IMG/VR virus record: IMGVR_UViG_3300032271_000411
Coordinates: 1 to 53,152 of that record
Length of the DNA: 53,152 bases
From: a virus
Direction: 5' to 3' (one strand)
The position numbers and the translations under genes were made by a program. This document shows positions 2 through 34,428 of this stretch, piece by piece (the first letter of the stretch is position 1; every line of letters starts with the position of its first letter). The notes under the pieces are model-generated. The model was not told the origin of the DNA and ran no database searches. It was given only the letters and a program-made list of their open reading frames with translations.

Positions 2-3000
2 AATCCTTGGTCACAGACAGTCAATGATATCTACCAGCAAGAGCTTGGTAGGCAGGCTGATGCAAGCGGGATGGCCAACTACACAGCTTTTCTCAATCAG
101 GGCATGACTGGTGAGCAAATAAGGGATCAACTCAGGTCAAGTACTGAGGGTCAGTCTTATGGTGGTGCCTTGCAACCAGTAGTAGATGCGGGTTTTTATC
201 AGCAAGCGCCGTTGACGCCTGACGCGCAATGGGAGTATCAGCCGGGTTTTACTGACGATAGCGCGGGTTACTCTAATTACACCGCGCCATATTATTTAGA
301 TGTTAATTCGGGCGCAAGAAGGGAAACAACCCCAGTTGACGCCCCACGGTCAGACGTTGTTGACCCGAACAATTTGGCGCAGCACTTAGCGCCAAACTAT
401 GAAGGAACGCCGACGCAGTTTTATGATGAACAAGGCAACTTAAAAGGTGTCTTGATTGATACGGTTAAGGCGGGTTTAGGCGCAAAAGAAGGCAGTCTGA
501 TTCTTGACCCTGCATCGCTTGGGCTTGCCCTCAAGCCGGGCGAAAAACCAACTATCAATAGTGCAATTCAAGCGCGCAACGAGCAAGGTCAATTATTATT
601 TGTTGACCCGATTACAGGCGGGTCTACGATCTATAACACTGGCGTGCCCATGCCCACGGGCAGCACGTTGAAAGATAAGATGTACATCAATGACCCCGGC
701 AAGCGAGGCGGTCAAATCCCCACGGATATGTCGCAGGGTGCATTACTACTCGCCGCTACGATGGCCACAGGCGGTGTGGGCGGTGCGTTGTTAGACGCTG
801 CAGGGTTTGGTGCTGGTGCTGCAGGGGGATTAAGCGACGTTGGCGCTGCTAATTTAATGGGCGGGTCATTATCCGATGCGGGTGCCGCTGCAACAATGGG
901 CGGCACGGTTGCGGATACTGGCATCAACTGGGGAGCTGCCGCTACGACTGCTGCAAAGACTGCCGCAATTAACGCGGCCGTGACAGCGGCACAGGGCGGC
1001 AAACTTAATGACATTTTGAAAGCAGGTGCATTAGGCGCTGTGGCAGGTGGCGCAGGTGTCGCAGGTGCTGACTTCTTAGGCGGTGGCACACTCGCTCAGA
1101 TTGGCACACAGACAGCCGTGGCAACAGCAATTGCCGCGGCGTCGGGCAAAGACCCTGTGCAAGCAGCAATTAGCGGTGCTTTAAGCGCCACGGTTGCCAA
1201 CCTAATCCCTTCTGGTACGGCAGACATCCTAAACGGCGCAGGCATTACGGATCCGAGCATTCAAAAGGCTGTTAACTCGGCCATCTCTAGCTCTGTCATC
1301 ACGGCTATCAGGGGCGGTGACATCGGTACGGCTGCGCTCATGGGCGCAGTCAACTCAGGGCTTGCGAGTGTTGCGGGCATGATCGGCAACAGCCAGGTCG
1401 TGCAAGATATCAAAGCTAATATTACAAACGCACTTACATCAACTGTTGATGATATCAAGTACGGGATAGGGGCGACAAACGCTCAGGCGCTACCAGTTGA
1501 GGGCTCGAACAGAGCAAACGTTGGCACAGAATTAGACACCCAGACGCAGCCTGACGTACTAAACAGTATTTTTCAGCAGGACGCGCAAGACGCGATGAAC
1601 CGCAATATGCCTGCGGCACCGCCTTTGGTGCAGGCTGCAATTAACCAGAACACAAGCAACCCAGACGAATTAAATCAGTTCTTTTCTAACTACACGCCTA
1701 ACGTGGGTGCACCGTTAGGCACGGTTGCAAATGCCGCAACGAGCGACGTCAACCCACCTGCGTTGTCGTCTGGTGATGAGTACGTCTACTACAAAGATGC
1801 TCAGGGCAACGAGGTGTATGGGCCAAGAAGCATGGCACCCAACATTGTTGATACCTCACCTTCTCAAAGCGGTTTGGCAACATTTGGCCAGGGCGTGGCC
1901 TCTGCCTTGGATAACACGGTGGGCGCTATTTTGCCGACTGTCGCTCAGATGGCGTCCTATCTTGGCTTGCGAACGGGCGATCAAATCGCCGAGTTGACCG
2001 CGTCGCTTATTGGCAAAGACTACCAAGCTAACCCCGAGCTAATGCGCGAGATATCCAACAGGGTCGCTGAGGCAATTAGCAATCCGTTTGGTAAGGCGTT
2101 TGGCGTGACCAACACCCCAGGCTACGCGGGCGAGGCAAGTGGCCAAGTCTTGCGTTTTATTAGCGAGAACCTAGACAAGGGCGCTGATTACCTGTCTGAG
2201 AAGACAGGCTTGCCCGCGGGCGATATTCGGCTAATGACCGATGCAATCTTGATGCGCCCTGGCACTGCGCTGTCTACGGCTAGAGAGGCCGGTGCGGCCG
2301 TCAAGGACGTTGGCCGCGGCTACGCTGATGCAGCCACAGGGATCGTAAACGAAAGTCCAACAGGGGCTTACAACCTTGGCGCAAGCGTTGCTGATCTGAC
2401 TCGCGCACCAGACACTAGCCTGATGCGTGGCGAGAGCCCCACAAGGAACATTAACCTTGGCGAGATAATTGACGAAGCGCCGTCTTACGTGAGCCCTGAG
2501 AGGCTCTCAGCGCCCGCGCCTGCTTTGGGTTACAGCCCGACAGAGGTGGCCGCCGCCCCTAGAGACGTTGCAAGCATCTTTAATGATGCGTTTGAAGCGG
2601 CTGATCGGATCCCAACCTATGACGTGAGGCCACAACCAACGGCAATGCCTGCCACGCAGCTCGCGCCTGAGTCTCGCGGTGCGCTGCCTACAACCTTTGC
2701 AGAGCCTGCTATTAGGCCGATTGACTTGGGTCCTAATATCAACTCAGACACTGCCCTTAGTATTGTTGCAGAAGGAAGAACCTTAGACCAAGCAATATCT
2801 AAAGGCTTGACCCCTGAGCTTCAAACTCAAGCAAAGTCGTACATTGACAACACTTATACTCAGGTCGCAGATAAGCCGCCATCGTCAATTTCCTCTGCAT
2901 TTTTTGATGACATATTTTTCAGTGGCGCAGGGTCAGAGAAGACGACTAAAGCAATCTCTGATGTGGTCAACAACCCTGCCGCCCCACCTGAAGTCATCTT

Positions 3001-23791: not shown

Positions 23792-25752
23792 GGCACAGCG
23801 ACATGGCTGTTCAAAGCAAATTAGAGGCGGCACTCAGCTACGCCTCTTGGGGCTGGCACGTGTTGCCAGTTGTGCCCAATGAAAAAATCCCCGCAACTGC
23901 GCACGGCGTGCACGACGCAACGACTGACCCGGCACAGATTAAAGTATGGTGGACCCAAAACCCAGACTTCAACATCGGTATTGCCGCGGGTCACATCAGC
24001 AACATCGTCGTGTTTGACATCGACCCGCGCAACGGTGGCGACCTGTCTTGGGAGACGTGGCTTAGCGAGCACGGCGCGGCACCCGACGGCGCGTACCAGT
24101 TAACTGCGGGCGGCGGTCAGCACTACATCAGCGTATATCGCGACAGTATTAAGAGCTGCAAACTGCGCGAGGGCATCGACCTGCTTTCAAACGGTCGATA
24201 CTTCTTGGCGAGCCCTTCAACGATTAACGGGCGTACCTACGACTGGGAAGCGTCGAGCGATCCGTTCGAGGGCGTGGCACCGTTTCACATTCCTGAGCCG
24301 TGGCTCGCAGCGCTCTCTGTGCGCAAGGTCATCGTCAACGCGCAGAGCTCACTCATCGAGGGCAACCGCAACGCAGGGCTTACCGCAATCGCGGGGTCTC
24401 TCAGGCGCTTAGGCATGACCGAGCCAGAGATACTAGCCGCATTAAACGCCACGAACGAGAACCGGTGCTCGACCCCGCTGCCGGCCTCTGAGATCAGACA
24501 GATTAGTCGATCAGTTGCGCGTTACGAGCCTGAGTTTGACATGGCCGGCGACACCGCGCTTGGTGCCCAGGCGGCTCAGAACCTACTTAAAAAGCAAGAA
24601 GATTACGTTCACCCTTTAGCTCAATTCGTTAACTATGACTTAACGAACATGAAGCCCCGCGAGTACATCTTAGACGGCATCATCGGTATGGGGTTGACTC
24701 TCATCGCGGGTGCCGCGGCCGCCGGAAAGACCACGCAGTTAGTGCCCCTCGCGTGCAGGATTGCGCACCTGTGCGAGCCCGATGACCCGCTCAAGCCTTT
24801 ACTTAGGCGCAAGATCATCTACATCACAGAGGACAGCGCCCAGGTGATCAACATCCTGCGCTCGATGCGCGAGTCTGGGCATCTAGGGGGCGCAAGCCAG
24901 GAAGAGATGCATGAGTACTTTAAGATCGTTGACGCCAAGCGCCTGCCGGTCGCTGAGATCGTTAAGGTCGCCGAGACTTACCTCGCAATGCTCACCGAGA
25001 ACATAAGCCCCGTGACGGGCGAGGTGCACATGACCGTGCCGTGGCCGGTGTTTGACACTAGCAGCTCAACGATTGATTTAGAGAACGAGAGCGACAACTC
25101 AGTCGTTGGGCGTGCCCTAGCGGTGCTTAAACAGCGGTTTCAGGGCGTGCCGATGGGTATTGTGGGTCACATAGCCAAAGCGCTCAAACGCGCCGACGTG
25201 GCTGATTTTAGTGCCCGCGGGGCTGGTGCCTGGGAGGCCGATGCAAATCAGGTGATTTATCTGATCAAAGAGGACGATGGCACACGCTGGATGGAGATCA
25301 AAGACGCTAAGCATCGCTTTGTCGCTAAAGTTGACGGCATCAAGTTCGAAGCAGTTGTGAATAAGATTAAGACTTTTGACATGTTGGGCAACGAAGTTGA
25401 AGAGACTCTGATTCATGGTCACCCCGTAGCGATTGAGACGGGCGGCAAGAAAGCATTAAAAGAGCAGAAAGAGCAGGACAAAAAGCGCGGCGAGGCGGCT
25501 GCGAAGCATTTAGAAAAGGCAAAATATGAGGATTTGGTGGTCAATGAGTTAGCCTCTCTACAGCCACATGAGTACCGAACAATGAACGAATTGGTTGATT
25601 TATTGCCTATGGGCAAGGGCAATGCGCTTGATTTTATTAAAGGCATGGCGCGTCAAAAGTTGATCTCGATGATTGATTTGCCGTTTCCTGAAGAGATCAT
25701 AAAAAGAGCTAATTCTCATCGTACAATTTTCACAAAGTCTCACGAAGTATGA
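23788..25752 (+). CDS. Bifunctional primase-polymerase and helicase
   Basis: 654 residues. Residues about 10-175 form a Prim-Pol (AEP) domain: GWHVLPVVPNEKIP, catalytic VFDIDP (D77, D79), GGGQHYI (H112), then GIDLLSNGRYFLASPS. A primase C-terminal helical domain follows (EGNRNAGLTAIAGSLRRLGM, about 190-245). Residues about 285-510 are a RecA-like ATPase with Walker A GAAAAGKTT (K314), a HIAKALKRADV sensor-like segment and AWEADANQVIYLI. Such proteins prime and unwind at the origin. ATG 23788 overlaps the upstream gene; ATG 23803 is a possible alternative start. An iteron cluster lies directly downstream. Confidence 0.9.
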   Translation: MRHSDMAVQSKLEAALSYASWGWHVLPVVPNEKIPATAHGVHDATTDPAQIKVWWTQNPDFNIGIAAGHISNIVVFDIDPRNGGDLSWETWLSEHGAAPDGAYQLTAGGGQHYISVYRDSIKSCKLREGIDLLSNGRYFLASPSTINGRTYDWEASSDPFEGVAPFHIPEPWLAALSVRKVIVNAQSSLIEGNRNAGLTAIAGSLRRLGMTEPEILAALNATNENRCSTPLPASEIRQISRSVARYEPEFDMAGDTALGAQAAQNLLKKQEDYVHPLAQFVNYDLTNMKPREYILDGIIGMGLTLIAGAAAAGKTTQLVPLACRIAHLCEPDDPLKPLLRRKIIYITEDSAQVINILRSMRESGHLGGASQEEMHEYFKIVDAKRLPVAEIVKVAETYLAMLTENISPVTGEVHMTVPWPVFDTSSSTIDLENESDNSVVGRALAVLKQRFQGVPMGIVGHIAKALKRADVADFSARGAGAWEADANQVIYLIKEDDGTRWMEIKDAKHRFVAKVDGIKFEAVVNKIKTFDMLGNEVEETLIHGHPVAIETGGKKALKEQKEQDKKRGEAAAKHLEKAKYEDLVVNELASLQPHEYRTMNELVDLLPMGKGNALDFIKGMARQKLISMIDLPFPEEIIKRANSHRTIFTKSHEV

Positions 25753-25763
25753 GAATGTGCTGA

Positions 25764-25946
25764 ATACCACATGATACCACATGACACTCTTTTCACTAAA
25801 TAATTCTTTATTTCCATGTGGTATTTTGGATGTGGTATCCCTAAAGGGAAATACACGATACTACATGGGTCTGAAGCCCCCATGTAGTATTGTAAATCGA
25901 AGTCTGAATACTACATGAAAAAAGATGAATACCAGAATACTACATA
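25764..25946. repeat. Eight-copy ATACYACATG iteron cluster, candidate origin
   Basis: Plus-orientation copies: 25764-25773, 25774-25783 (adjacent, identical), 25858-25867, 25908-25917, 25937-25946 (last base differs). Minus-orientation copies: 25815-25824, 25829-25838 (one mismatch), 25881-25890. The pair at 25858/25881 extends to a 12-bp inverted repeat able to form a hairpin. The region is A+T-rich, non-coding, and follows the replication gene. It may be the replication origin or an operator array; the initiator is unknown. Confidence 0.7.
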
Positions 25947-25973
25947 GTTTTGCTTTACAAACGAAACGTATAC

Positions 25974-25997
25974 AAAAAACCCCCATTTCTGGGGGTT
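25974..25997 (-). terminator. Terminator of the short minus transcript
   Basis: On the minus strand AACCCCC (25997-25991) pairs with GGGGGTT (25984-25978) around a 6-base loop, with a T-run continuing to 25974. It ends the four-gene minus unit before it reaches the iterons. Confidence 0.82.
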
Positions 25998-26026
25998 AGC
26001 TTAGATTTAATTTAGGGTTGATTTAT

Positions 26027-26200
26027 TTACTTACGGGCCTCAATCACAATCGTTGGCAACAGACTCTTGGCGTATGCCACGGCCGCTGACTTACTGTGAA
26101 AGGTTTCGCTTTCATCGTATTGATGATTTTCCTCATTGTAGGTAGACACATTCCAATATTTATTATATTTATCAAACCACACCTCAATTTTCTTGATCAT
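26027..26200 (-). CDS. Small DUF2188-like protein
   Basis: 57 residues: KIEVWFDKYNKYWNVSTYNE then ETFHSKSAAVAYAKSLLPTI. A short beta hairpin followed by a helix with the SKxxAVxxAKxL pattern resembles DUF2188-type proteins, which are small and uncharacterised. AAAGGAGTTGATCAA provides a good ribosome-binding site. Last gene of the minus unit. Confidence 0.6.
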   Translation of the reverse strand: MIKKIEVWFDKYNKYWNVSTYNEENHQYDESETFHSKSAAVAYAKSLLPTIVIEARK

Positions 26201-26214
26201 TTGATCAACTCCTT

Positions 26215-26403
26215 TTAATAATCAGATTTCAAAACAAGTTTGCAAATTTCAGCTTCAGCAAGCAAGTCATCATGTTTTTGAAGTTGAACAGCAGCCTGTA
26301 CAGGCTCATCAAAAATGTGTTTCCGCAAAACGTACTCATCGTAGTGTTTCTTGGCTTGAACTTTGCAATTTACTAAGCGGGTAAATAATTGAGCTTTTGT
26401 CAT
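26215..26403 (-). CDS. Small helical protein, unknown function
   Basis: 62 residues, helical and Lys/Ala-rich: AQLFTRLVNCKVQAKKHYDE then AAVQLQKHDDLLAEAEICKL. AAAGGAAATGAC precedes the ATG. No family recognised. Confidence 0.6.
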   Translation of the reverse strand: MTKAQLFTRLVNCKVQAKKHYDEYVLRKHIFDEPVQAAVQLQKHDDLLAEAEICKLVLKSDY

Positions 26404-26429
26404 GTCATTTCCTTTGGTTCGTTATGGGA

Positions 26430-26657
26430 TTAATTATCAAAAGCTACGCAAATCACGGCGCAACCATGCGACTTGCAGTTGTGAGACTTCAGGGCACGCA
26501 GAAAAGCATCCTCACGCTCGCGGGCGATCGTTGAGCCCCACTTGGCAGGTGTAGCACCTGCAAGCAACTCGTCGCAGCGTGGGCAGCCCTTTGTCTTCTT
26601 GCCAAAGACCACGCCGCCGCAGGAATGTTTAGTTGTTGTGCTTTTTGCCCATGCCAT
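26430..26657 (-). CDS. Cys-rich small protein with zinc-ribbon-like motif
   Basis: 75 residues. HSCGGVVFGKKTKGCPRCDE is a zinc-ribbon-like C-x-n-C-x2-C segment. The C-terminus HNCKSHGCAVICVAFDN repeats the tag of 16076-16369 (HDCVRSGCTVCVAFEH). GGAGAATAATC precedes the ATG. Function unknown; the shared ending suggests a common partner or processing. Confidence 0.65.
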   Translation of the reverse strand: MAWAKSTTTKHSCGGVVFGKKTKGCPRCDELLAGATPAKWGSTIAREREDAFLRALKSHNCKSHGCAVICVAFDN

Positions 26658-26659
26658 GA

Positions 26660-26830
26660 TTATTCTCCAAACAGTGATGAGATGACGCGCTTGGCTTCAG
26701 CTTTAAGCTCTTTGTTGCTGACCTCTGAGAAGTCAACGCCGTCACACATCAACTGCATGTGCACGTCAAAGGCCTTGCCCTCGTCTAACTCGGGGAACAT
26801 CTTCATCAAGTCTTTGGTTACTTTGTTCAT
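26660..26830 (-). CDS. Small early protein (56 aa)
   Basis: MNKVTKDLMKMFPELDEGKA then FDVHMQLMCDGVDFSEVSNK and a helical end. First gene of the minus unit beside the terminase genes; GACCGGAGC lies 6 to 14 bases upstream and contains the Shine-Dalgarno GGAG. Function unknown. Confidence 0.6.
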   Translation of the reverse strand: MNKVTKDLMKMFPELDEGKAFDVHMQLMCDGVDFSEVSNKELKAEAKRVISSLFGE

Positions 26831-26991
26831 CGTCTTGCTCCGGTCAGTTTATCTGGTTGGTGTGGTTCGCCCACAAACAAATAGTAACACGAAAAAACAC
26901 ATTGTGTTAAATATTTACAATTATTTTCTAGGTGTTTTCCCTAGTTTTGATAAAAATGTTGTTTTTAGTGTGATTTTGATACAATTTGAAA
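26831..26991. promoter_or_regulatory. Divergent promoter region before the terminase genes
   Basis: Minus: extended -10 TGT then TACTAT (26889-26881), leader with GACCGGAGC (26845-26837), and a 13-bp palindrome AACACA-T-TGTGTT at 26896-26908, close upstream and operator-like. Plus: extended -10 TGA then TACAAT (26977-26985) places the expected transcription start at about 26992, the terminase ATG. No strong -35 is seen for either. Confidence 0.5.
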
Positions 26992-27327
26992 ATGGAAATT
27001 GAAAAACAACCTAAGAAAACCAAGGGCGGTGTCCGTGAAGGCGGCGGTCGTCCTAAGGGCGTGCCTAATAAGGCCACAACGCTCGCCAGAGAGGCCTTCG
27101 CGGCCTTCGTGGATGGGAATGCCCACCGCATGCAGGAGTGGCTTGAGCAGGTCGCTGTCGATCCTAAGCATGGTCCGAAGGTTGCCATTGAATTAGTGCT
27201 GCAGGTCAGCGAGTACCACATCCCTAAGTTGGCTCGCACTGAACACGTTGGCGACGGGGGCGGCCCTGTTGAGATGCGCGTGTCTCTAATTGAGAAGATT
27301 GCAGCCCGACGGCTCAAAGATGGCTGA
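26992..27327 (+). CDS. terS: Terminase small subunit-like protein
   Basis: 111 residues from the ATG at 26992. The Lys/Gly-rich start (KKTKGGVREGGGRPKGVPNK) then ATTLAREAFAAFVDGNAHRM resembles phage DNA-binding terminase small subunits with a GRPKG-type N-terminus. It would recognise the packaging site and recruit the large subunit. Its stop overlaps the large-subunit start by 8 bases. No Shine-Dalgarno site is visible, so it may be translated from a leaderless transcript. Confidence 0.78.
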   Translation: MEIEKQPKKTKGGVREGGGRPKGVPNKATTLAREAFAAFVDGNAHRMQEWLEQVAVDPKHGPKVAIELVLQVSEYHIPKLARTEHVGDGGGPVEMRVSLIEKIAARRLKDG

Positions 27328-28714
27328 AGAGCTGGTCGAGCTCAGCATTGAAGAGCTCGTCATGCTCGACTGGCGTGAGTCTTGGTTTGATACCGCACGC
27401 CCCAAACAGATCATGCCCGACGGCGATTGGTGGACGACCTGGTTGATCTTGGCCGGCCGCGGTTGGGGTAAGACAAAGACCGGTGCCCAGGCGCTCGGTT
27501 GGTACGCGGCCACAAACCCCAACACCCGCTGCGGCATCATCGCCCCCACGACCAACGACGTCCGCGCCGTTTGCCTCGAGGGCGAGTCTGGCTTGATGGC
27601 GGTGCTTCCGCCTTCAATCATATCCGGATACAACAAATCATTGCTTGAGGTCACGCTCAAGAACGGCTCTATCATCCGCGGGTTCTCGGCCGAAGAGCCG
27701 TCGCGTCTACGTGGTCCACAGCATCACATCGTTTGGTGTGACGAGGCGGCCGCCTGGCAGTACCCCGACGAGGCGTGGTCGATGATGAAGTTTGGCTTGC
27801 GGCTTGGCCAGAGCCCGAAGGTAATCGTGACCACGACCCCCAAGCCCATCGACTTGGTTCGCCAGTTGGTGGACGAGGCCGAAGACGAGGACAGCTCAAC
27901 GATCATGACCACGGGCTCGACCTTCGAGAACGCCGATAACCTCGCCAAGTCATTCATCGATGAGCTCGCGCAGTTTGACGGCACCACGCTCGGCCGCCAA
28001 GAGCTGTACGCCGAGCTGATCTCTGAGCTCGAGGGCGGTATCGTCAGCGAGAGCTGGTTCAAGCTCTGGCCGGCCGCCAAGCCCCTGCCTCAGTTCGAGT
28101 ACGTCGTACAGTCGTACGACTGCGCGACCTCGGACAAGACCTCCAACGACCCGACCGCCTGCGTGGTGCTCGGGATCTTTCGCCCGTCGCCCGACAAGGC
28201 CATGTCCGCGATGGTGATCGACGCCTGGTCGGAGCACATGCTCTACCCTGACCTGCGCCCTAAGGTCATCGAAGAGGCCACCTCTATATATGGTGACGAG
28301 AACGAGTTCGGGAACGGCAAGAAAGTTGACTTGATCCTAATCGAGGACAAGTCCGCGGGCATCTCGCTCATCCAAGACCTGCAACGCGCCAACCTACCCG
28401 TGCGATCCTACAACCCAGGGCGTGCCGACAAGACCATGCGCCTGAACTTAGTCGCCCCGCTCATCATGCGCGGGCGCGTCTACCTGCCCGAGTCTGAGGA
28501 TCGACCAGGCAAGCCCCGCAAGTGGCTCAACCCCTTTGTCACCCAGGTCTGCTCCTTCCCCAACGCCAAGCACGACGACTACTGCGACGCGCTTAGCCAA
28601 GCCCTGCGCGTGCTGCGCGACATGAACTTCATTGAAATTGACCCGGTTGTGCATTATGATGACGAGTATGACGAGGATCGACGGATCCGGCGTGAGAATC
28701 CCTATGCGATGTGA
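27320..28714 (+). CDS. terL: Terminase large subunit
   Basis: 464 residues from the ATG at 27320. The ATPase domain has Walker A GRGWGKTKT (about 46-54), RGFSAEEPSRLRGPQ, and Walker B IVWCDEAAAW (D/E about 139-140), plus TTTPKP coupling motif. The nuclease domain has SYDCATSDKTSNDPTACVV, LILIEDKSAGISLIQDL and the terminal KHDDYCDALSQAL. Length and motifs are typical. It powers DNA entry through the portal and cuts the concatemer. Confidence 0.95.
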   Translation: MAEELVELSIEELVMLDWRESWFDTARPKQIMPDGDWWTTWLILAGRGWGKTKTGAQALGWYAATNPNTRCGIIAPTTNDVRAVCLEGESGLMAVLPPSIISGYNKSLLEVTLKNGSIIRGFSAEEPSRLRGPQHHIVWCDEAAAWQYPDEAWSMMKFGLRLGQSPKVIVTTTPKPIDLVRQLVDEAEDEDSSTIMTTGSTFENADNLAKSFIDELAQFDGTTLGRQELYAELISELEGGIVSESWFKLWPAAKPLPQFEYVVQSYDCATSDKTSNDPTACVVLGIFRPSPDKAMSAMVIDAWSEHMLYPDLRPKVIEEATSIYGDENEFGNGKKVDLILIEDKSAGISLIQDLQRANLPVRSYNPGRADKTMRLNLVAPLIMRGRVYLPESEDRPGKPRKWLNPFVTQVCSFPNAKHDDYCDALSQALRVLRDMNFIEIDPVVHYDDEYDEDRRIRRENPYAM

Positions 28715-28717
28715 TCT

Positions 28718-30508
28718 ATGACAAATCCACTCGATTACACGATCCAAGACCCCGAGGCTATGCGCTACGCGCTTATGCAAGACTCGAGCTACCGCGGGGG
28801 CGGCGCTGTGCGCATGGCCGACGGCGGTATCCTTGACGGCCACCCCGTTTTTCAGACAGCGCAGACGCCCTTCGCCGAGTACCGGCACAGCATCGGCATG
28901 AACCACGGCGGCATGCACTTCGATGAGGGCGGCCAAGTAACGGGCTACGGTTCAGACGTGCCACAATTAGATGATCGTGGGCACTTAATCCGTGCACAGC
29001 CAACGGCTGAGCAGCGACTGCTTGACCGCGGCATTGCCCCTGAAGGTATGTCTGACTCTCAGTATGCGCAGGCGCAAATTGATCGAGGCAATACAAAGCC
29101 TGGGCACATCGCCAATGCGCTAACGCGCATTTTATCTATTCCCGAACATCTGATTGGCTCTAGTATGGGGCTTGACCCAATGATGGGTCTGATCGGCAAG
29201 ACAGGCGAACTGCATAGCATACCTAAGGCTGGGCAGTACGCAGCGAGCCGAGTTGCGCCATTTGCTAAAGACACCGCCCAGATGGCTGCTGAGTTGTATG
29301 AGCGTGGACAGATGCCCGGCATGGTTGCGCCTGCGTCATATGCAATATCTCCAGAAAAAGCTGCGACGCGCATGCAAGCAAAGTCAATCATTGACCCGCA
29401 ACGCATGGCGTTCCCTGGTATTTACAGCCACCCATCCGAGATCGCCGCCGAGGCTGCCTCACGGGTCGCCCCCGAAAGCCCCAACCTCAAACGCGTCTTT
29501 GGCGTGAGCCGCGACGATTTATATGAGATCGGCAAGGACTTGCGCGGTAACTTGCCTGGCACGCTGCCTGGTGCTGCGGCCAAACCTAAGGGCTCAACGG
29601 CAGCAGAGAGGGTCATGTCAGACAAGAACGTTCAGCGCATCTTGGACGTCAACGCCGAGGCCGAGAAGTATCCCGAGCTCGTGCGTGGTATGGATCCTTG
29701 GTATGTCATGACACCGTACTACAAGCGCATGGTTGAGTTGCTCGGTCCAGAAAAAGCGGCGATCGAGTACCGATTACAAAATACCCTCATGGGCATGGCC
29801 TCGCCTGGCTCTGAGGTTACCACCGAGATCCCGCGTGGCTCGGCTGCCTACTTCCTGCAAAAGCAGGGCAGGTGGCCTGAGTTTATGAAAGACATAGGAA
29901 TTGCCCAAGATAAAAGAGAGGCCGCGGGTGTGGCCTCAGATATCATCGGGGTGCCAGGCCACGTCTATCATCGGACGGCGCAGGCCGGTCCAATGGACAA
30001 GTTCTTGAGCACTGGTGATTTCACCATGACCACGCCAAAGGTGCCGATGTATATCGAGGCGAGTGGCGTGCCAGAGACTGGCTTTCAGACACGGACACCT
30101 GTTGGCGACGCGCACTGGTCGCGTGCTGTTGGCTTGGCCGACACTCGAGGTGCAAAGACCAGCAAGGGCAAAGAGGTTGTGCCAGGCGGTAGCGTGAGCA
30201 ACCCCGAGATGGCCCAACTCGCGCCTTGGTGGCGCGACAAGATTGCTGCCCAACTAGGTATTGAGTCTGTGCCCGCACAGGCGCGAACATGGGGGGCGTT
30301 CTCTGGCCAAACCGGTGTGACCACGCCAATCGGTTCGCCTAAGCTCGAGATGATTGCTGACCAAATTGCTATGACAGCAAAGCGTTTAGGCGTAAGCATT
30401 GAAACCGCCCGCGATATGGTTATGACAGGACAGGCACGAATGGGTAAAAAAGACGGCGGCGAAGTATCCCTCGATCAAATGCGCCACGAACTAACAAAGG
30501 CTAAATAA
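28718..30508 (+). CDS. Large protein between terminase and portal, unknown function
   Basis: 596 residues. The N-terminus holds several Gly-Gly tags (MADGGILDGH, NHGGMHFDEGGQ). The C-terminal 250 residues include TPVGDAHWSRAVGLADTR and a WGAFSGQTGVTTPIGSPKLE segment, similar to a family of unknown role that I associate with the terminase-portal gap of environmental phages (possibly DUF7178). It ends KKDGGEVSLDQMRHELTKAK. Perhaps a virion-associated or packaging-accessory protein; this rests on position. Confidence 0.6.
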   Translation: MTNPLDYTIQDPEAMRYALMQDSSYRGGGAVRMADGGILDGHPVFQTAQTPFAEYRHSIGMNHGGMHFDEGGQVTGYGSDVPQLDDRGHLIRAQPTAEQRLLDRGIAPEGMSDSQYAQAQIDRGNTKPGHIANALTRILSIPEHLIGSSMGLDPMMGLIGKTGELHSIPKAGQYAASRVAPFAKDTAQMAAELYERGQMPGMVAPASYAISPEKAATRMQAKSIIDPQRMAFPGIYSHPSEIAAEAASRVAPESPNLKRVFGVSRDDLYEIGKDLRGNLPGTLPGAAAKPKGSTAAERVMSDKNVQRILDVNAEAEKYPELVRGMDPWYVMTPYYKRMVELLGPEKAAIEYRLQNTLMGMASPGSEVTTEIPRGSAAYFLQKQGRWPEFMKDIGIAQDKREAAGVASDIIGVPGHVYHRTAQAGPMDKFLSTGDFTMTTPKVPMYIEASGVPETGFQTRTPVGDAHWSRAVGLADTRGAKTSKGKEVVPGGSVSNPEMAQLAPWWRDKIAAQLGIESVPAQARTWGAFSGQTGVTTPIGSPKLEMIADQIAMTAKRLGVSIETARDMVMTGQARMGKKDGGEVSLDQMRHELTKAK

Positions 30509-30510
30509 TT

Positions 30511-33054
30511 ATGGCAACCCAGATGCCCATCCCGCAGGACTATGGCCGTTTTGTGCCCCCGATATCAGAGGGATCAGAAGAGTTTGCCAACACCGCCGAG
30601 GTCGATCTGTTTGACCAGGCCGACGTTCAAGAGCAGGACGACGGCTCAGCGATCGTGCGCCTAGAGGACGATGATCTATTAGGTCCTGATGACTCGCCTG
30701 ACTTCTACGAGAACTTGGCTGATGTCATTGACTCGTATGACTTAACAGGTGTAGCGCTCAAGTACCTTGAGCTCGTTGAGAAAGACAAGTCAGCCCGCGA
30801 GGGGCGAGATAAGCAGTATGAGGAAGGGTTGCGTCGCACGGGGCTTGGCCAAGACGCGCCAGGCGGTGCCTCGTTTATGGGGGCAAGTAAGGTCGTGCAC
30901 CCCATCATGGCCGAGGGCTGCGTAGACTTCGCCGCCCGCGCCATCAAAGAGCTCTTCCCGCCTGACGGTCCAGTGCGCTCAAAGATTCTGGGCGAGGTGA
31001 CTGAGCAAAAGACTGCGATCGCCGAGCGCAAGCGCGATTACATGAACTACCAGTTGACCGAGAAGATCGAAGAGTACCGCGACGAGGAGGAGCAGTTGCT
31101 CACCCAGTTGCCGCTTGGTGGCTCGCAGTACATGAAGATCTGGTACGACGAGTCTAAGCGCCGCCCCTGCGCTGAGTTCTTGCCGATTGATAACGTGTAC
31201 CTGCCATTTGCCGCGGCCAACTTCTACACCGCAAGTCGCGTGACCGAGGTCAACGACATCACCCAGGACGACTTTGAGGCTCGCGTCTCGAGCGGGCTCT
31301 ACATTGACTTGGACATCTATCGCGCCTCGCAAGAGCCAGAAGAGTCAAAGCCAGAAAAAGCCAACAACAAGATTGAAGGCCGCAACAGCGAGGCCGATAA
31401 CATTGACGGCGTGCGCCGCGTGTTTCACATCTACACTTGGATGGAACTCGAGGACGACAAGAAGAGCAAGGGCGAGCGTGCCCCTTACATCTTGATGATT
31501 GATGAGTTGTCGTCCGAGGTCGTGGGGCTTTACCGCAACTGGGAAGACGGCGACGAGTTGATGTCAAAGCTCGACTGGATCGTTGAGTTTAAATTCATCC
31601 CTTGGCGAGGTGCTTATGCTGTCGGTCTGCCTCATCTTATTGGCGGCCTATCTGCCGCTCTTACTGGTGCTTTGCGTGCTTTACTTGACTCTGCGCACAT
31701 CAACAACGCCCCCACGATGCTCAAGCTCAAGGGCGGCAAAGTCTCGGGGCAAAGCATCGTCGTTGAGCCCACCCAAGTCACGGAAATCGAAGGTGCGCCA
31801 GGCGTAGACGACGTACGCAAGATTGCCATGCCGATGCCGTTCAATCAGCCCTCGGCCGTGCTGTTTCAGTTGCTTGGTTGGTTGACGGACGCCGCTAAAG
31901 GCGTGGTCACAACCGCCGAAGAGAAGATCGCCAACGTCACCTCCAACGCCCCCGTTGGCACCACGCAAGCGCTCATCGAGCAGGGCGCTGCCGTATTCTC
32001 GGCCATCCATGCACGGCTTCACACAAGCCAGGCGCGGGTGCTCAAGATCATCGGGCGCTTGAACCGTTGGTATCTGGACGACAACCCAGACGAGATGAGC
32101 CGCGAACTTGGCGTCACCTCAAAAGACTTTGAGAAGAACTCGGACGTGGTGCCGGTCTCTGACCCGCATATTTTTGCCGAGTCGCAGCGCTACGCCCAGG
32201 TGCAAGCGCTGGCCGCACGCGCCCAGGCTAACCCTGACCTCTACAACCGGTTGGCTGTTGAGAAGCGGATCCTTAAACAGATCAAGCTGCCCGACATCAA
32301 CGAGGTTTTACCTGACCCGCAGGACGTAAAAGAAATGAACCCGGCGCTTGAGAACGTCGCCATGACACTTGGCAAGCCTGTCGGTGCGTTCCCGAACCAA
32401 GACCACCTCGCCCACCTGCAAGTCCACCTTGACTACGCCAAAGACCCGATGTACGGGGCAAGCCCAATTATCGCGCCGGTGTTTACCCCACAAATGCTCG
32501 AGCATCTCAAGCAGCACTTGACGCTCTGGTACCTGAACACGATGGACAAGTATGCGTCTGACGCGTTGGGCGAGTCGTTTGATATCCTGAAGGTTCAGCC
32601 AATAATGCGGGAAGCCCAACAGCTACTTGCGGCGAGCTCGCAACATGTGCACCAGGACACGCAGCAGCAGTTTGCAGGCGTAGTGCCTGTCATGCAGCAG
32701 ATGATCCAGACCCTTCAACAACTCAAGTCGCAGCAGGCACCGACTGACCCAAGCGTGCAAGCCTTGGTTCAGACTCAGATGGCTGAAACGAACCGTAAAA
32801 CGCAAGCCGATCAAGCCAAAATTCAACTTGACCAGGCCAAGCTGGCTGCGGACGTCAAGGCCAAGCAGGAAAAGAACGTCGCTGACGAGCAAATCAAGGC
32901 GGCCGAGCTCACCCACGACATCAACTTGCTGACGCTTGAGCAGCAACATGAGCAGCAACGTCAACAACTTCAAGCGCAACAGCAGCAACAAATTGCAGCA
33001 CAGCAAGCAGCACAACAATCTCAACCTCAAGAAGTACCACCGCAAGGAGTTTAA
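30511..33054 (+). CDS. Portal protein
   Basis: 847 residues. FLPIDNVYLPFAAANFYTAS, then VTEVNDITQDDFEARVSSGL, NAPVGTTQALIEQGAAVFSA and QHLTLWYLNTMDKY are features of the large podovirus-type portal family. The C-terminal 130 residues are a Gln/Ala-rich helix, the likely barrel or crown extension. Twelve copies would form the DNA channel, binding terminase outside and adaptors below. The N-terminal EQDDGSAIVRLEDDD peptide is echoed in the scaffold protein. The start follows the preceding stop by 2 bases. Confidence 0.88.
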   Translation: MATQMPIPQDYGRFVPPISEGSEEFANTAEVDLFDQADVQEQDDGSAIVRLEDDDLLGPDDSPDFYENLADVIDSYDLTGVALKYLELVEKDKSAREGRDKQYEEGLRRTGLGQDAPGGASFMGASKVVHPIMAEGCVDFAARAIKELFPPDGPVRSKILGEVTEQKTAIAERKRDYMNYQLTEKIEEYRDEEEQLLTQLPLGGSQYMKIWYDESKRRPCAEFLPIDNVYLPFAAANFYTASRVTEVNDITQDDFEARVSSGLYIDLDIYRASQEPEESKPEKANNKIEGRNSEADNIDGVRRVFHIYTWMELEDDKKSKGERAPYILMIDELSSEVVGLYRNWEDGDELMSKLDWIVEFKFIPWRGAYAVGLPHLIGGLSAALTGALRALLDSAHINNAPTMLKLKGGKVSGQSIVVEPTQVTEIEGAPGVDDVRKIAMPMPFNQPSAVLFQLLGWLTDAAKGVVTTAEEKIANVTSNAPVGTTQALIEQGAAVFSAIHARLHTSQARVLKIIGRLNRWYLDDNPDEMSRELGVTSKDFEKNSDVVPVSDPHIFAESQRYAQVQALAARAQANPDLYNRLAVEKRILKQIKLPDINEVLPDPQDVKEMNPALENVAMTLGKPVGAFPNQDHLAHLQVHLDYAKDPMYGASPIIAPVFTPQMLEHLKQHLTLWYLNTMDKYASDALGESFDILKVQPIMREAQQLLAASSQHVHQDTQQQFAGVVPVMQQMIQTLQQLKSQQAPTDPSVQALVQTQMAETNRKTQADQAKIQLDQAKLAADVKAKQEKNVADEQIKAAELTHDINLLTLEQQHEQQRQQLQAQQQQQIAAQQAAQQSQPQEVPPQGV

Positions 33055-33056
33055 TC

Positions 33057-33338
33057 ATGTCTGACGCAATTTCGCAGCACAAACGTATGGCAATGGGCGA
33101 GTCCGTGCCCTTGGCAGGCGGCAAATCAGTGATCCAAAAGTATGCCAAGGGCGGCGCAGTGATGGCCGAGAGCAAGGCAGCTAACTTACCGGCCAAGGGT
33201 GGCGCATTGCAACCCGTCAAGGCGACTGGCGAGAAGATCGCAACCTTCAAAAAGGGTGGCGTTGTGCCTAAGAACGGCATGGGCTTGAAGATAATCATCG
33301 GTGTTCCTGCGCGTAAAGCCGCCGGCCGTGGTCGTTAA
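33057..33338 (+). CDS. Small basic protein with KGG repeats
   Basis: 93 residues, rich in Lys, Gly and Ala. VIQKYAKGGAVMAES and TFKKGGVVPKNGMG carry the same K-Y/F-x-KGG unit repeated in 38934-39557. No domain is recognised. Probably a small virion or assembly protein; inferred from place between portal and scaffold. Confidence 0.65.
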   Translation: MSDAISQHKRMAMGESVPLAGGKSVIQKYAKGGAVMAESKAANLPAKGGALQPVKATGEKIATFKKGGVVPKNGMGLKIIIGVPARKAAGRGR

Positions 33339-33519
33339 CCCAGTCAGCGAGCTAATCGGCAAGATAAAGGAGCGGCGCTTAGAGCTAGCGCTCTCCCTTG
33401 CTGACGGCTACGCGATCAACATTGAGTCTTACCACCGGATGGTTGGCACGTATCAAGGGCTTGGTGAAGCCCTGGACATACTTGACAGTATCTTGAATGA
33501 TGAGGACGAGGATTTGTAA
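33328..33519 (+). CDS. Small helical protein next to portal, start uncertain
   Basis: From the GTG at 33328 about 63 residues: VVNPVSELIGKIKERRLELA then SLADGYAINIESYHRMVGTY and an acidic tail LDSILNDEDEDL. Short helical proteins of this layout often follow portal genes in environmental phages. A GTG at 33301 would add 9 residues; neither start has a clear ribosome-binding site. Confidence 0.6.
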   Translation: MVVNPVSELIGKIKERRLELALSLADGYAINIESYHRMVGTYQGLGEALDILDSILNDEDEDL

Positions 33520-33520
33520 A

Positions 33521-33983
33521 CGCCTTTAGCAAGCGGGGGTGTCTACTGGTAAGGGTCGTTACCTCAAACGCCTAGCTTTAGGGCTGACGCTTCGGAATAG
33601 ACGAGGGTCAACACGCATAGGGGTTGCTGGCTGACGAGCAGCATCAGACTGAGTCCAAAGGGCTGTGACAAGGCCAGCCACGGTTTGATGTACAAAAGGC
33701 AGTCCCTAGCCGTGTTGGTATGTGAAAGCAGATGCTGTTGGATTGCTAAAAAACCTTAACCGATATTCTAATGTCGGTGGCTACAGCACCCGCCATCTAA
33801 GCGCCTGCTGATCACAGGGGCAGTGCAGCGAGTAATTTACCAACACGGGATTGTCCATCGTAAATGACAATGTAGCGGCTTGCGGGCGAAATCTGAACAG
33901 AACAATGAGAGCTGTGTATCTCAGGCAAGGAACGACAGTGACACCTCGGAAAGACGAGGATAACCGCGCCGAATGGCGCTTTT
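33521..33983 (+). ncRNA. Candidate large structured RNA in the late operon
   Basis: No convincing ORF spans this segment, but it holds many complementary stems: 33548-33552/33559-33563, 33571-33574/33579-33582, 33609-33612/33623-33626, 33628-33633/33675-33680, an 11-bp perfect long-range helix 33710-33720/33838-33848 closing a multibranched domain (33733-33738/33783-33788, 33760-33766/33771-33777), then 33850-33855/33866-33871, 33906-33910/33919-33923 and 33944-33948/33955-33959. It ends with GCGCC-GAAT-GGCGC and T4, a terminator-like 3' end. It lacks tRNA, tmRNA, RNase P or intron hallmarks. Size and phage context recall ROOL and GOLLD RNAs, but the identity is unknown. Confidence 0.65.
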
Positions 33984-34006
33984 AACCAAGTGCCGAATGG
34001 CGCTTT
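33966..34006 (+). repeat. Two tandem GAAT-loop hairpins before the GroES-like gene
   Basis: GCGCC-GAAT-GGCGC-TTTT (33966-33983) and GTGCC-GAAT-GGCGC-TTT (33990-34006) are near-identical units. The first could terminate the upstream RNA. The second stands directly before AAGGAG and the ATG at 34018, where it could influence translation or act as an RNA-processing boundary. Confidence 0.75.
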
Positions 34007-34017
34007 AAGGAGTAGGT

Positions 34018-34428
34018 ATGAAGGACTTTGAAACCCTCGATGAGGCGTTCCCGCAGTGCGTACATGGCATCACACCACTAGGTGCCCGAGTGTTGTTACA
34101 ACTCAAAAGCGTCAAAAAAGCCAGTAAAGGCGGCATCATCCTAGTAGAAGAAACACGCGAAACTGAGCGTGCGCAGTCAATGATTGGCAAGGTCTTAGCG
34201 CTTGGTCCAATCGCATTCAAAAACCGTGACACTTTATCTGAATGGGGCGAAGGCATCTGGTGCCAGGTCGGCGACTACGTGCGCGTACCCCGTTGGTCAG
34301 GCGATCGGTTCACAGTGCCCAACCCAAACGACGCAGAAGACCAAGTTTCACTGCAAATCCTGAACGATTTTGAGTTATGGGCGAAGGTTGACCCTGACCA
34401 AGTCTTAACAATGAGGCAATTTGTATGA
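34018..34428 (+). CDS. GroES-like co-chaperonin
   Basis: 136 residues. ITPLGARVLLQLKSVKKASK then GGIILVEETRETERAQSMIG and KVLALGPIAFKN follow the Cpn10 fold: N-terminal strand, mobile loop with GGI, and the GKVLALGP strand; WCQVGDYVRVPRW matches the later VGDxV core. The C-terminal extension (about 100-136) is phage-specific. Phage co-chaperonins such as T4 gp31 help host GroEL fold the capsid protein; the position before scaffold and capsid fits. An AAGGAG site precedes the ATG, and it overlaps the scaffold gene by 4 bases. Confidence 0.82.
   Translation: MKDFETLDEAFPQCVHGITPLGARVLLQLKSVKKASKGGIILVEETRETERAQSMIGKVLALGPIAFKNRDTLSEWGEGIWCQVGDYVRVPRWSGDRFTVPNPNDAEDQVSLQILNDFELWAKVDPDQVLTMRQFV

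Follow-up and report, generated by a model that had tools for sequence, protein, structure and literature searches.

Structured RNAs are already known from the operon leaders and gaps of phages. A lambdoid nut site consists of boxA (YGCUCUUUAACA-like) followed by the boxB hairpin, and lambda nut acts through protein, whereas the put RNA of HK022 brings about antitermination by binding the zinc-binding domain of the RNA polymerase beta' subunit without proteins; a second put copy, putL, is located near PL in HK022. The put sites occupy the place of nut, the PR start is about 270 nt away from putR, and put RNAs are about 70 nt long with two stem-loops (PMC9378689). In lambda, nutR is found 24 nt behind cro and is annotated as 17 bp in the lambda record.

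Here, we describe an intergenic element at positions 33520–33961 of the 53-kb virus record IMGVR_UViG_3300032271_000411 (the whole of this stretch is called the window), which is a sense-strand chain of RNA modules (alpha, beta1, beta2 and delta) punctuated by a recurring hairpin, hp. Many freshwater phages carry these modules, whose RNA structure is conserved; they are swapped as whole units and lie directly 3' of the stop codon of the preceding gene. Copies linked to cro share with HK022 put the place behind this gene, a length of approximately 65–75 nt, two main stem-loops, the nut slot and the sense strand of the operon; this likeness of place does not hold for the window copy, which sits in a late operon. 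Unlike HK022, each phage carries one copy, extension occurs by swappable modules, and antitermination is here a putative activity. With nutR of lambda and P22, the family shares the location directly behind cro and a purine-rich-loop hairpin following a CUUUA-type sequence, whereas nut is short with one hairpin and alpha forms three hairpins before hp. The boxA match is imperfect, and the resemblance to boxA/boxB is partial: UGC-CUUUAGCAA is one U short, and the hp loop is 6–7 nt, of the GAAAGA type. As for GOLLD and ROOL, the element is likewise phage-borne, ornate, non-protein and hundreds of nucleotides long, but it has no Rfam match, its modules are separable and interchangeable, and it occurs in both early and late operons.

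Organization of the element in the window

The terminase, portal and GroES-like genes of the window form a single rightward late block, within which the element follows a 72-aa small gene (Table 1). A preliminary description of this DNA had proposed a large structured RNA in a gap free of protein-like reading frames, with a perfect 11-bp long-range helix and a terminator-like 3' end. The region 33519–34018 indeed holds no ORF longer than 44 aa on either strand, and the helix 33710–33720/33838–33848 is exact; a perfect inverted repeat of at least 11 bp was obtained in just 34 of 2000 dinucleotide shuffles of 33520–33961. The duplicated GAAT hairpins, which had been taken as the end of the RNA, are real, but they are kept in all 27 of 27 GroES-locus relatives, element-free ones included, and are thus not part of it; only 3–4 T follow each stem, and a plain terminator scan called no terminator there. 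In the window, no clear terminator was found behind the element, and no promoter or terminator convincingly belongs to it. Alignment of the window to empty and short relatives delimited the element proper to approximately 33520–33961.

Table 1. Features of the RNA element and its neighborhood in the window.
Feature	Position	Strand	Description
72-aa small gene	33301..33519	+	adjoins the element 5'; stop codon 2 nt ahead of the GCC of alpha
alpha	33520..33585	+	hairpins P1–P3; covariance model R1, 71.2 bits
alpha P1	33521-33523/33533-33535	+	loop CUUUAGCAA
alpha P2	33536-33541/33560-33565	+	UAAGGGUC within loop
alpha P3	33570-33573/33581-33584	+	loop AGCUUUA
punctuation hairpin hp1	33587..33606	+	GACG + CUUCG-GAAUAGA-CGAGG (33590-33606); MAFFT alignment
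beta1	33609..33717	+	outer strand pair 33609-33615/33711-33717; inner stem 33618-33626/33700-33708; these enclose a variable payload
beta2	33710..33848	+	frame helix 33710-33720/33838-33848; conserved internal loop GAAAGCRRAUG / GCAGCGAGUA; variable payload 33735-33822
delta	33849..33938	+	stems 33850-33855/33866-33871 and 33907-33910/33919-33922
second punctuation hairpin hp2	33939..33960	+	UGACA-CCUCG-GAAAGA-CGAGG-A; motif as hp1
duplicated GCGCCGAAUGGCGC-type hairpins	33966..34009	+	5' of the GroES-like gene; a feature of the locus and not of the RNA element
GroES-like co-chaperonin gene	34018..34428	+	3' of the element; Pfam Cpn10 1.3e-7, PHROG 3188

Covariation in the alpha module

Folding of the single sequence was only mildly better than chance (z −1.85, with 4 of 100 shuffles equally good). 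Folding energy alone was unimpressive; what decides in favor of the structure is the covariation in homologs. The alpha family was collected with a gapped pattern over the viral collection, which yielded 93 stretches, mostly true copies; about a dozen were chance matches in coding sequence and were discarded, as were the other genome matches that were read. The covariance model R1 recovers alpha copies at 48–110 bits, and about 55 distinct copies are present in public viral contigs.

Across 69 distinct aligned rows, including some weak hp-only matches, 94.7% of cells were paired, compared with 22.7–46.7% when the partners were slid by 1–3 columns. Both sides had changed in 17 of the 18 pairs, and none of 500 shuffles reached the observed values; the slid-partner control is more telling, since shuffles ignore kinship. 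A set fetched through the Cro protein, with no RNA pattern, gave 94.9% against 27–48%. Both alignments were made using R1 and are biased towards the structure of this model; the same swaps are visible by eye in plain MAFFT rows, where P2 appears as GAAAC/GUUUC, GGUCGG/CCGACC or GGUGG/CCACC. A first RNAalifold consensus from the MAFFT alignment misplaced P1 and P2, because P2 was misaligned, and was replaced by a hand-set structure with a covariance-model alignment. The P2 loop (UAAGG) and the P3 loop (CUUUA) may form a kissing contact, which fits most copies and is broken in L016 and L135. Each record holds one full alpha copy, including the complete MW202520, and no second copy resembling nutL or putL was found in the left arm.

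The hp hairpin and the beta and delta modules

The hp helix is paired in 99.7% of cells, with changes on both sides. In beta1 (12 copies, the window and 11 others), 98.4% of cells are paired, and two-sided changes occur in six of its 16 pairs; an exact scan with a piece of the window's beta1 gave no match. The beta2 module consists of a constant frame, GUUGGUAUGU-GAAAGCRRAUG ... GCAGCGAGUA-ACAUACCAAC, enclosing payloads that differ completely between phages. Among its 16 copies, 97.5% of cells are paired and each of the five payload-stem pairs shows two-sided changes, while the frame helix shows one-sided changes only, its 5' strand being fixed by the search pattern. Two-sided changes in this helix are present in the short beta2 of L080 (GUUGAUAG/CUAUCAAC). 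For these pairing counts, the payloads were cut out by hand. Compensatory changes in homologs, which the preliminary description had named as a check, are thus found in the helices of alpha, beta1 and beta2.

The two beta modules occur together in many copies. The outer beta1 helix and the beta2 frame helix are mutually exclusive, as both use 33711–33717, and beta is therefore probably a two-state fold. The delta module is common to three sequences only, those of the window, L080 and L141; in L141 both stems are kept with changed sequence (AUUGUC/GACAAU to CUGCA/UGCAG), and an exact scan with a piece of the window's delta matched one locus.

Two further structures were noticed at the beta modules of individual loci. 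At L131 (3818–3860) and, in L130, just past beta2, a hammerhead-like core was observed (stem I - CUGAUGA - A.stem II.A - GAAA - CC..GG - UC), whose matching stems differ between the two copies and which is set inside a pseudoknot-like frame (GUCAGAC/GUCUGAC, UCGUGUC/GACACGA). In 2.9 Mb, a simple descriptor matched the L131 core alone, which scores only 16.7 bits with Rfam Hammerhead_3. The beta2 payload of L131 (3683–3745) looks tRNA-like by eye, with D-loop UUGGUAGAGCA and T-arm GAUGG-UUCGAUU-CCAUC, though ARAGORN did not call it; it is possibly a degraded tRNA that was reused as payload.

Genomic position of the modules

Alpha was located behind a P22-Cro-like gene (about 71 aa, Pfam PF14549) in 46 of the 55 distinct copies. 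In nearly all of these it starts 8–9 nt past the cro stop codon, about 225 nt from the cro ATG, and measures about 65 nt; the erf and ssb genes lie opposite and are read in the other direction. A long-stem terminator is found about 200 nt from the alpha start in most copies with enough sequence. In the window, alpha begins 2 nt past a stop codon in the late operon, and L039 and L126 carry it upstream of terminase genes; L080 shows the same arrangement. By our reading of the sequence, these three loci place a UAG stop in alpha's own CUUUAG, inside GCCUUUAGC; it ends a conserved 28–29-aa membrane-like ORF (MKYTFWSE...MMILL...) just 5' of alpha. The sense strand and a stop codon directly 5' are therefore common to all contexts examined, being seen behind cro, in L039, L080 and L126, and in the window.

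Other arrangements were recorded alongside these. In L127, L130, L134 and L137, beta1–beta2 lies between SSB-like and DNA-polymerase-like genes, with hp swapped for a GCCGGGC...GCCCGGC hairpin. In cro-linked copies, e.g., L103 4132–4160, hp falls within a promoter spacer, between a −35 (TTGAC) and a −10 (CAGAAT, CATAAT and similar) at 17–18 nt spacing; this promoter precedes a small RNA that starts near GAATTGTTGTCGTG and ends in a terminator. The cro loci of L255 and L256, without alpha or beta2, contain a small RNA similar to the one in MW202520 (CCCUUGG..CGGGG, with terminator GUGAAGCCUUUUUU).

Gain, loss and exchange of modules

The same GroES-like gene was found in 27 viral contigs. Its locus is element-free in 18 of them, the stop codon being followed almost immediately by the GCGCCGAATGGCGC hairpins, while a short form of about 100 nt (alpha and one hp) is present in the other nine; the window form measures about 440 nt. 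All short relatives (L006 etc.) keep hp once, at the place of hp2. Among the element-free contigs, L018–L021 have another gene end at this position. A long form with a different beta1 and a shorter beta2 is carried by L141, and there is no room for the element in MW202545 and Caulobacter phage RW, which are named relatives. This comparison identifies the element as an optional insertion at approximately 33520–33961, and the duplicated hairpins as part of the locus.

A census of 79 usable cro loci gave alpha in 53, alpha–beta1–beta2 in nine, beta2 alone in eight and none in nine; alpha and beta2 therefore occupy the same slot. Blocks that start or end at hp separate the long from the short forms (the window versus L006 and L141, L061 versus L042, and L080), and L080 carries three hp in a row. 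To our knowledge, based on a brief literature search, no hp-bounded exchange of RNA modules has been described. The earlier proposal of a large structured RNA is thus borne out for 33520–33961, but as interchangeable modules and not as one monolithic molecule. Its suggested likeness to a single ornate RNA of the ROOL or GOLLD kind is not supported, as the modules are separable, occur alone or reordered, and take up other operon positions, both early (behind cro) and late.

Relation to known RNA families and host range

Searched against Rfam, the window gave no match at the gathering threshold, and nothing relevant was found at E ≤ 10 in 33300–34200 for GOLLD, ROOL, HEARO or group I/II introns. 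Twelve related loci returned just two unrelated families, both outside the modules. ARAGORN detected no tRNA or tmRNA in the window or in 20 related loci. A hammerhead candidate in the window, CUGACGA near 33630 without a GAAA core partner, was rejected. The Betaproteobacteria-1 RNA (RF02932) lies in the same region of L080, about 1 kb 3' of the modules, but is a separate RNA, and no module matches RF02932; its hit (1743–1859, minus strand, 91 bits) is 3' of the module array, and a similar sequence is found downstream in L050. The surmise that the segment might be a new class holds: it is phage-borne, structured and absent from Rfam 15, with compensatory changes in its helices.

R1, the only model used for this comparison, gave no match in HK022 24000–33000 (9.0 kb, which may not hold both put sites) or in 4.5 kb of lambda, and no N-like protein was identified. 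The alpha family may work like put; it is not classifiable as put, since a second copy near PL was searched for without success.

The only complete phage record with a copy is MW202520 (Manatee Spring); the other phage records and plasmids had none. The only bacterial match is contig L141, which was binned with a beta-proteobacterium, and in its order one of 399 genomes, L141's own, carries a copy under strict filters. The family is therefore phage-borne rather than common in prophages. The hosts seem to be freshwater bacteria, probably betaproteobacteria, as suggested by the binning of L141 and by RF02932 in L080.

Discussion

By analogy with the place and size of put and nut, we propose that the element is a nascent RNA that acts in cis on RNA polymerase during elongation; it resembles put in these two respects, with no detected homology. 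Once RNA polymerase moves out of the upstream gene, the fold of alpha (or beta2) would form in the nascent operon transcript and would act on the polymerase, either without a protein partner, like HK022 put RNA, or through one, like lambda nut, and transcription could then get past downstream terminators and pauses. The window copy would keep late transcription going into the GroES-like gene and the capsid genes, and the hp hairpins may serve as joints for module gain and loss by recombination. The proposal is consistent with the covariation in alpha, beta1 and beta2, repeated on the Cro-fetched set free of RNA-pattern bias; with the nutR/putR-like position behind cro, the put-like size and, in most copies, the long-stem terminator further on; and with the exchange of alpha and beta2 in one slot, always on the sense strand in the copies examined in context. 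Against it stand the single alpha per record with no left-arm counterpart, the lack of R1 matches in the searched stretches of HK022 and lambda, the partial boxA/boxB likeness, and the absence of the element from nine of the 79 cro loci, most GroES-locus relatives, MW202545 and Caulobacter phage RW. Given the single copy, the missing HK022 and lambda matches, the nine empty cro loci and the absence of a clear terminator behind the window copy, we hold this reading with modest confidence, at somewhat less than an even chance.

It is also possible, and we suggest it tentatively, that the modules are RNA cassettes in which conserved alpha, beta1 and beta2 frames carry variable payloads, are joined by hp and are traded among phages and among operon positions; such cassettes would either target the host polymerase or serve as switchable scaffolds, through strand exchange between beta1 and beta2.

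The optional presence at every locus, the mosaic order and the hp-bounded gain and loss would also fit a selfish or neutral RNA cargo, spread by recombination at hp and tolerated behind stop codons, whose structure aids insertion or avoids harm; hp resembles the gene end joined at the GroES locus (GAAAGACGAAGAT / GAAAGACGAGGAT). However, no gene for a recombinase or transposase was observed to accompany the element, and the frequency of 78% with which alpha is present behind cro, the near-fixed 8–9 nt spacing and the single copy per genome suggest selection for a role, which makes mere cargo unlikely. We likewise consider it improbable that the segment is processed into stable trans-acting RNA, be it an sRNA, a decoy or an ornate RNA of the ROOL/GOLLD type. 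Its size and high degree of structure, the terminator-ended small RNA directly adjacent at the cro locus with hp between its −35 and −10, and the hammerhead-like module of L131/L130, which could release ends, would suit such processing. Yet the modules occur singly or reordered, the wholly different beta2 payloads are unlike a trans RNA of fixed shape, and the window has no convincing promoter or terminator for it.

A 3'-UTR or intercistronic element that stabilizes or processes mRNA, and so sets the expression ratio of the flanking genes, seems quite unlikely: the many hairpins and the constant position just past a stop codon (1–2 or 8–9 nt), or supplying it in L039, L080 and L126, agree with this function, but it would not need the invariant loops (AGCUUUA, UAAGGGUC, GAAAGC/GCAGCGAGUA), and the neighboring genes vary by site. 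Chance structure in ordinary intergenic DNA, to which the weak window-only folding score would point, is refuted by the covariation that several modules show in dozens of phages and is practically untenable.

Together, our results indicate that dozens of uncultivated freshwater phages carry an uncatalogued family of structured RNAs, for which covariation is strong. The location behind cro points to a further phage lineage that controls early transcription by RNA, in the manner of HK022 put, and the competition of beta1 and beta2 for one strand, along with the alpha slot, makes this idea directly testable by reporter. Frames that are bounded by hp and whose payloads can be exchanged would clearly exemplify domain shuffling at the level of RNA instead of protein.
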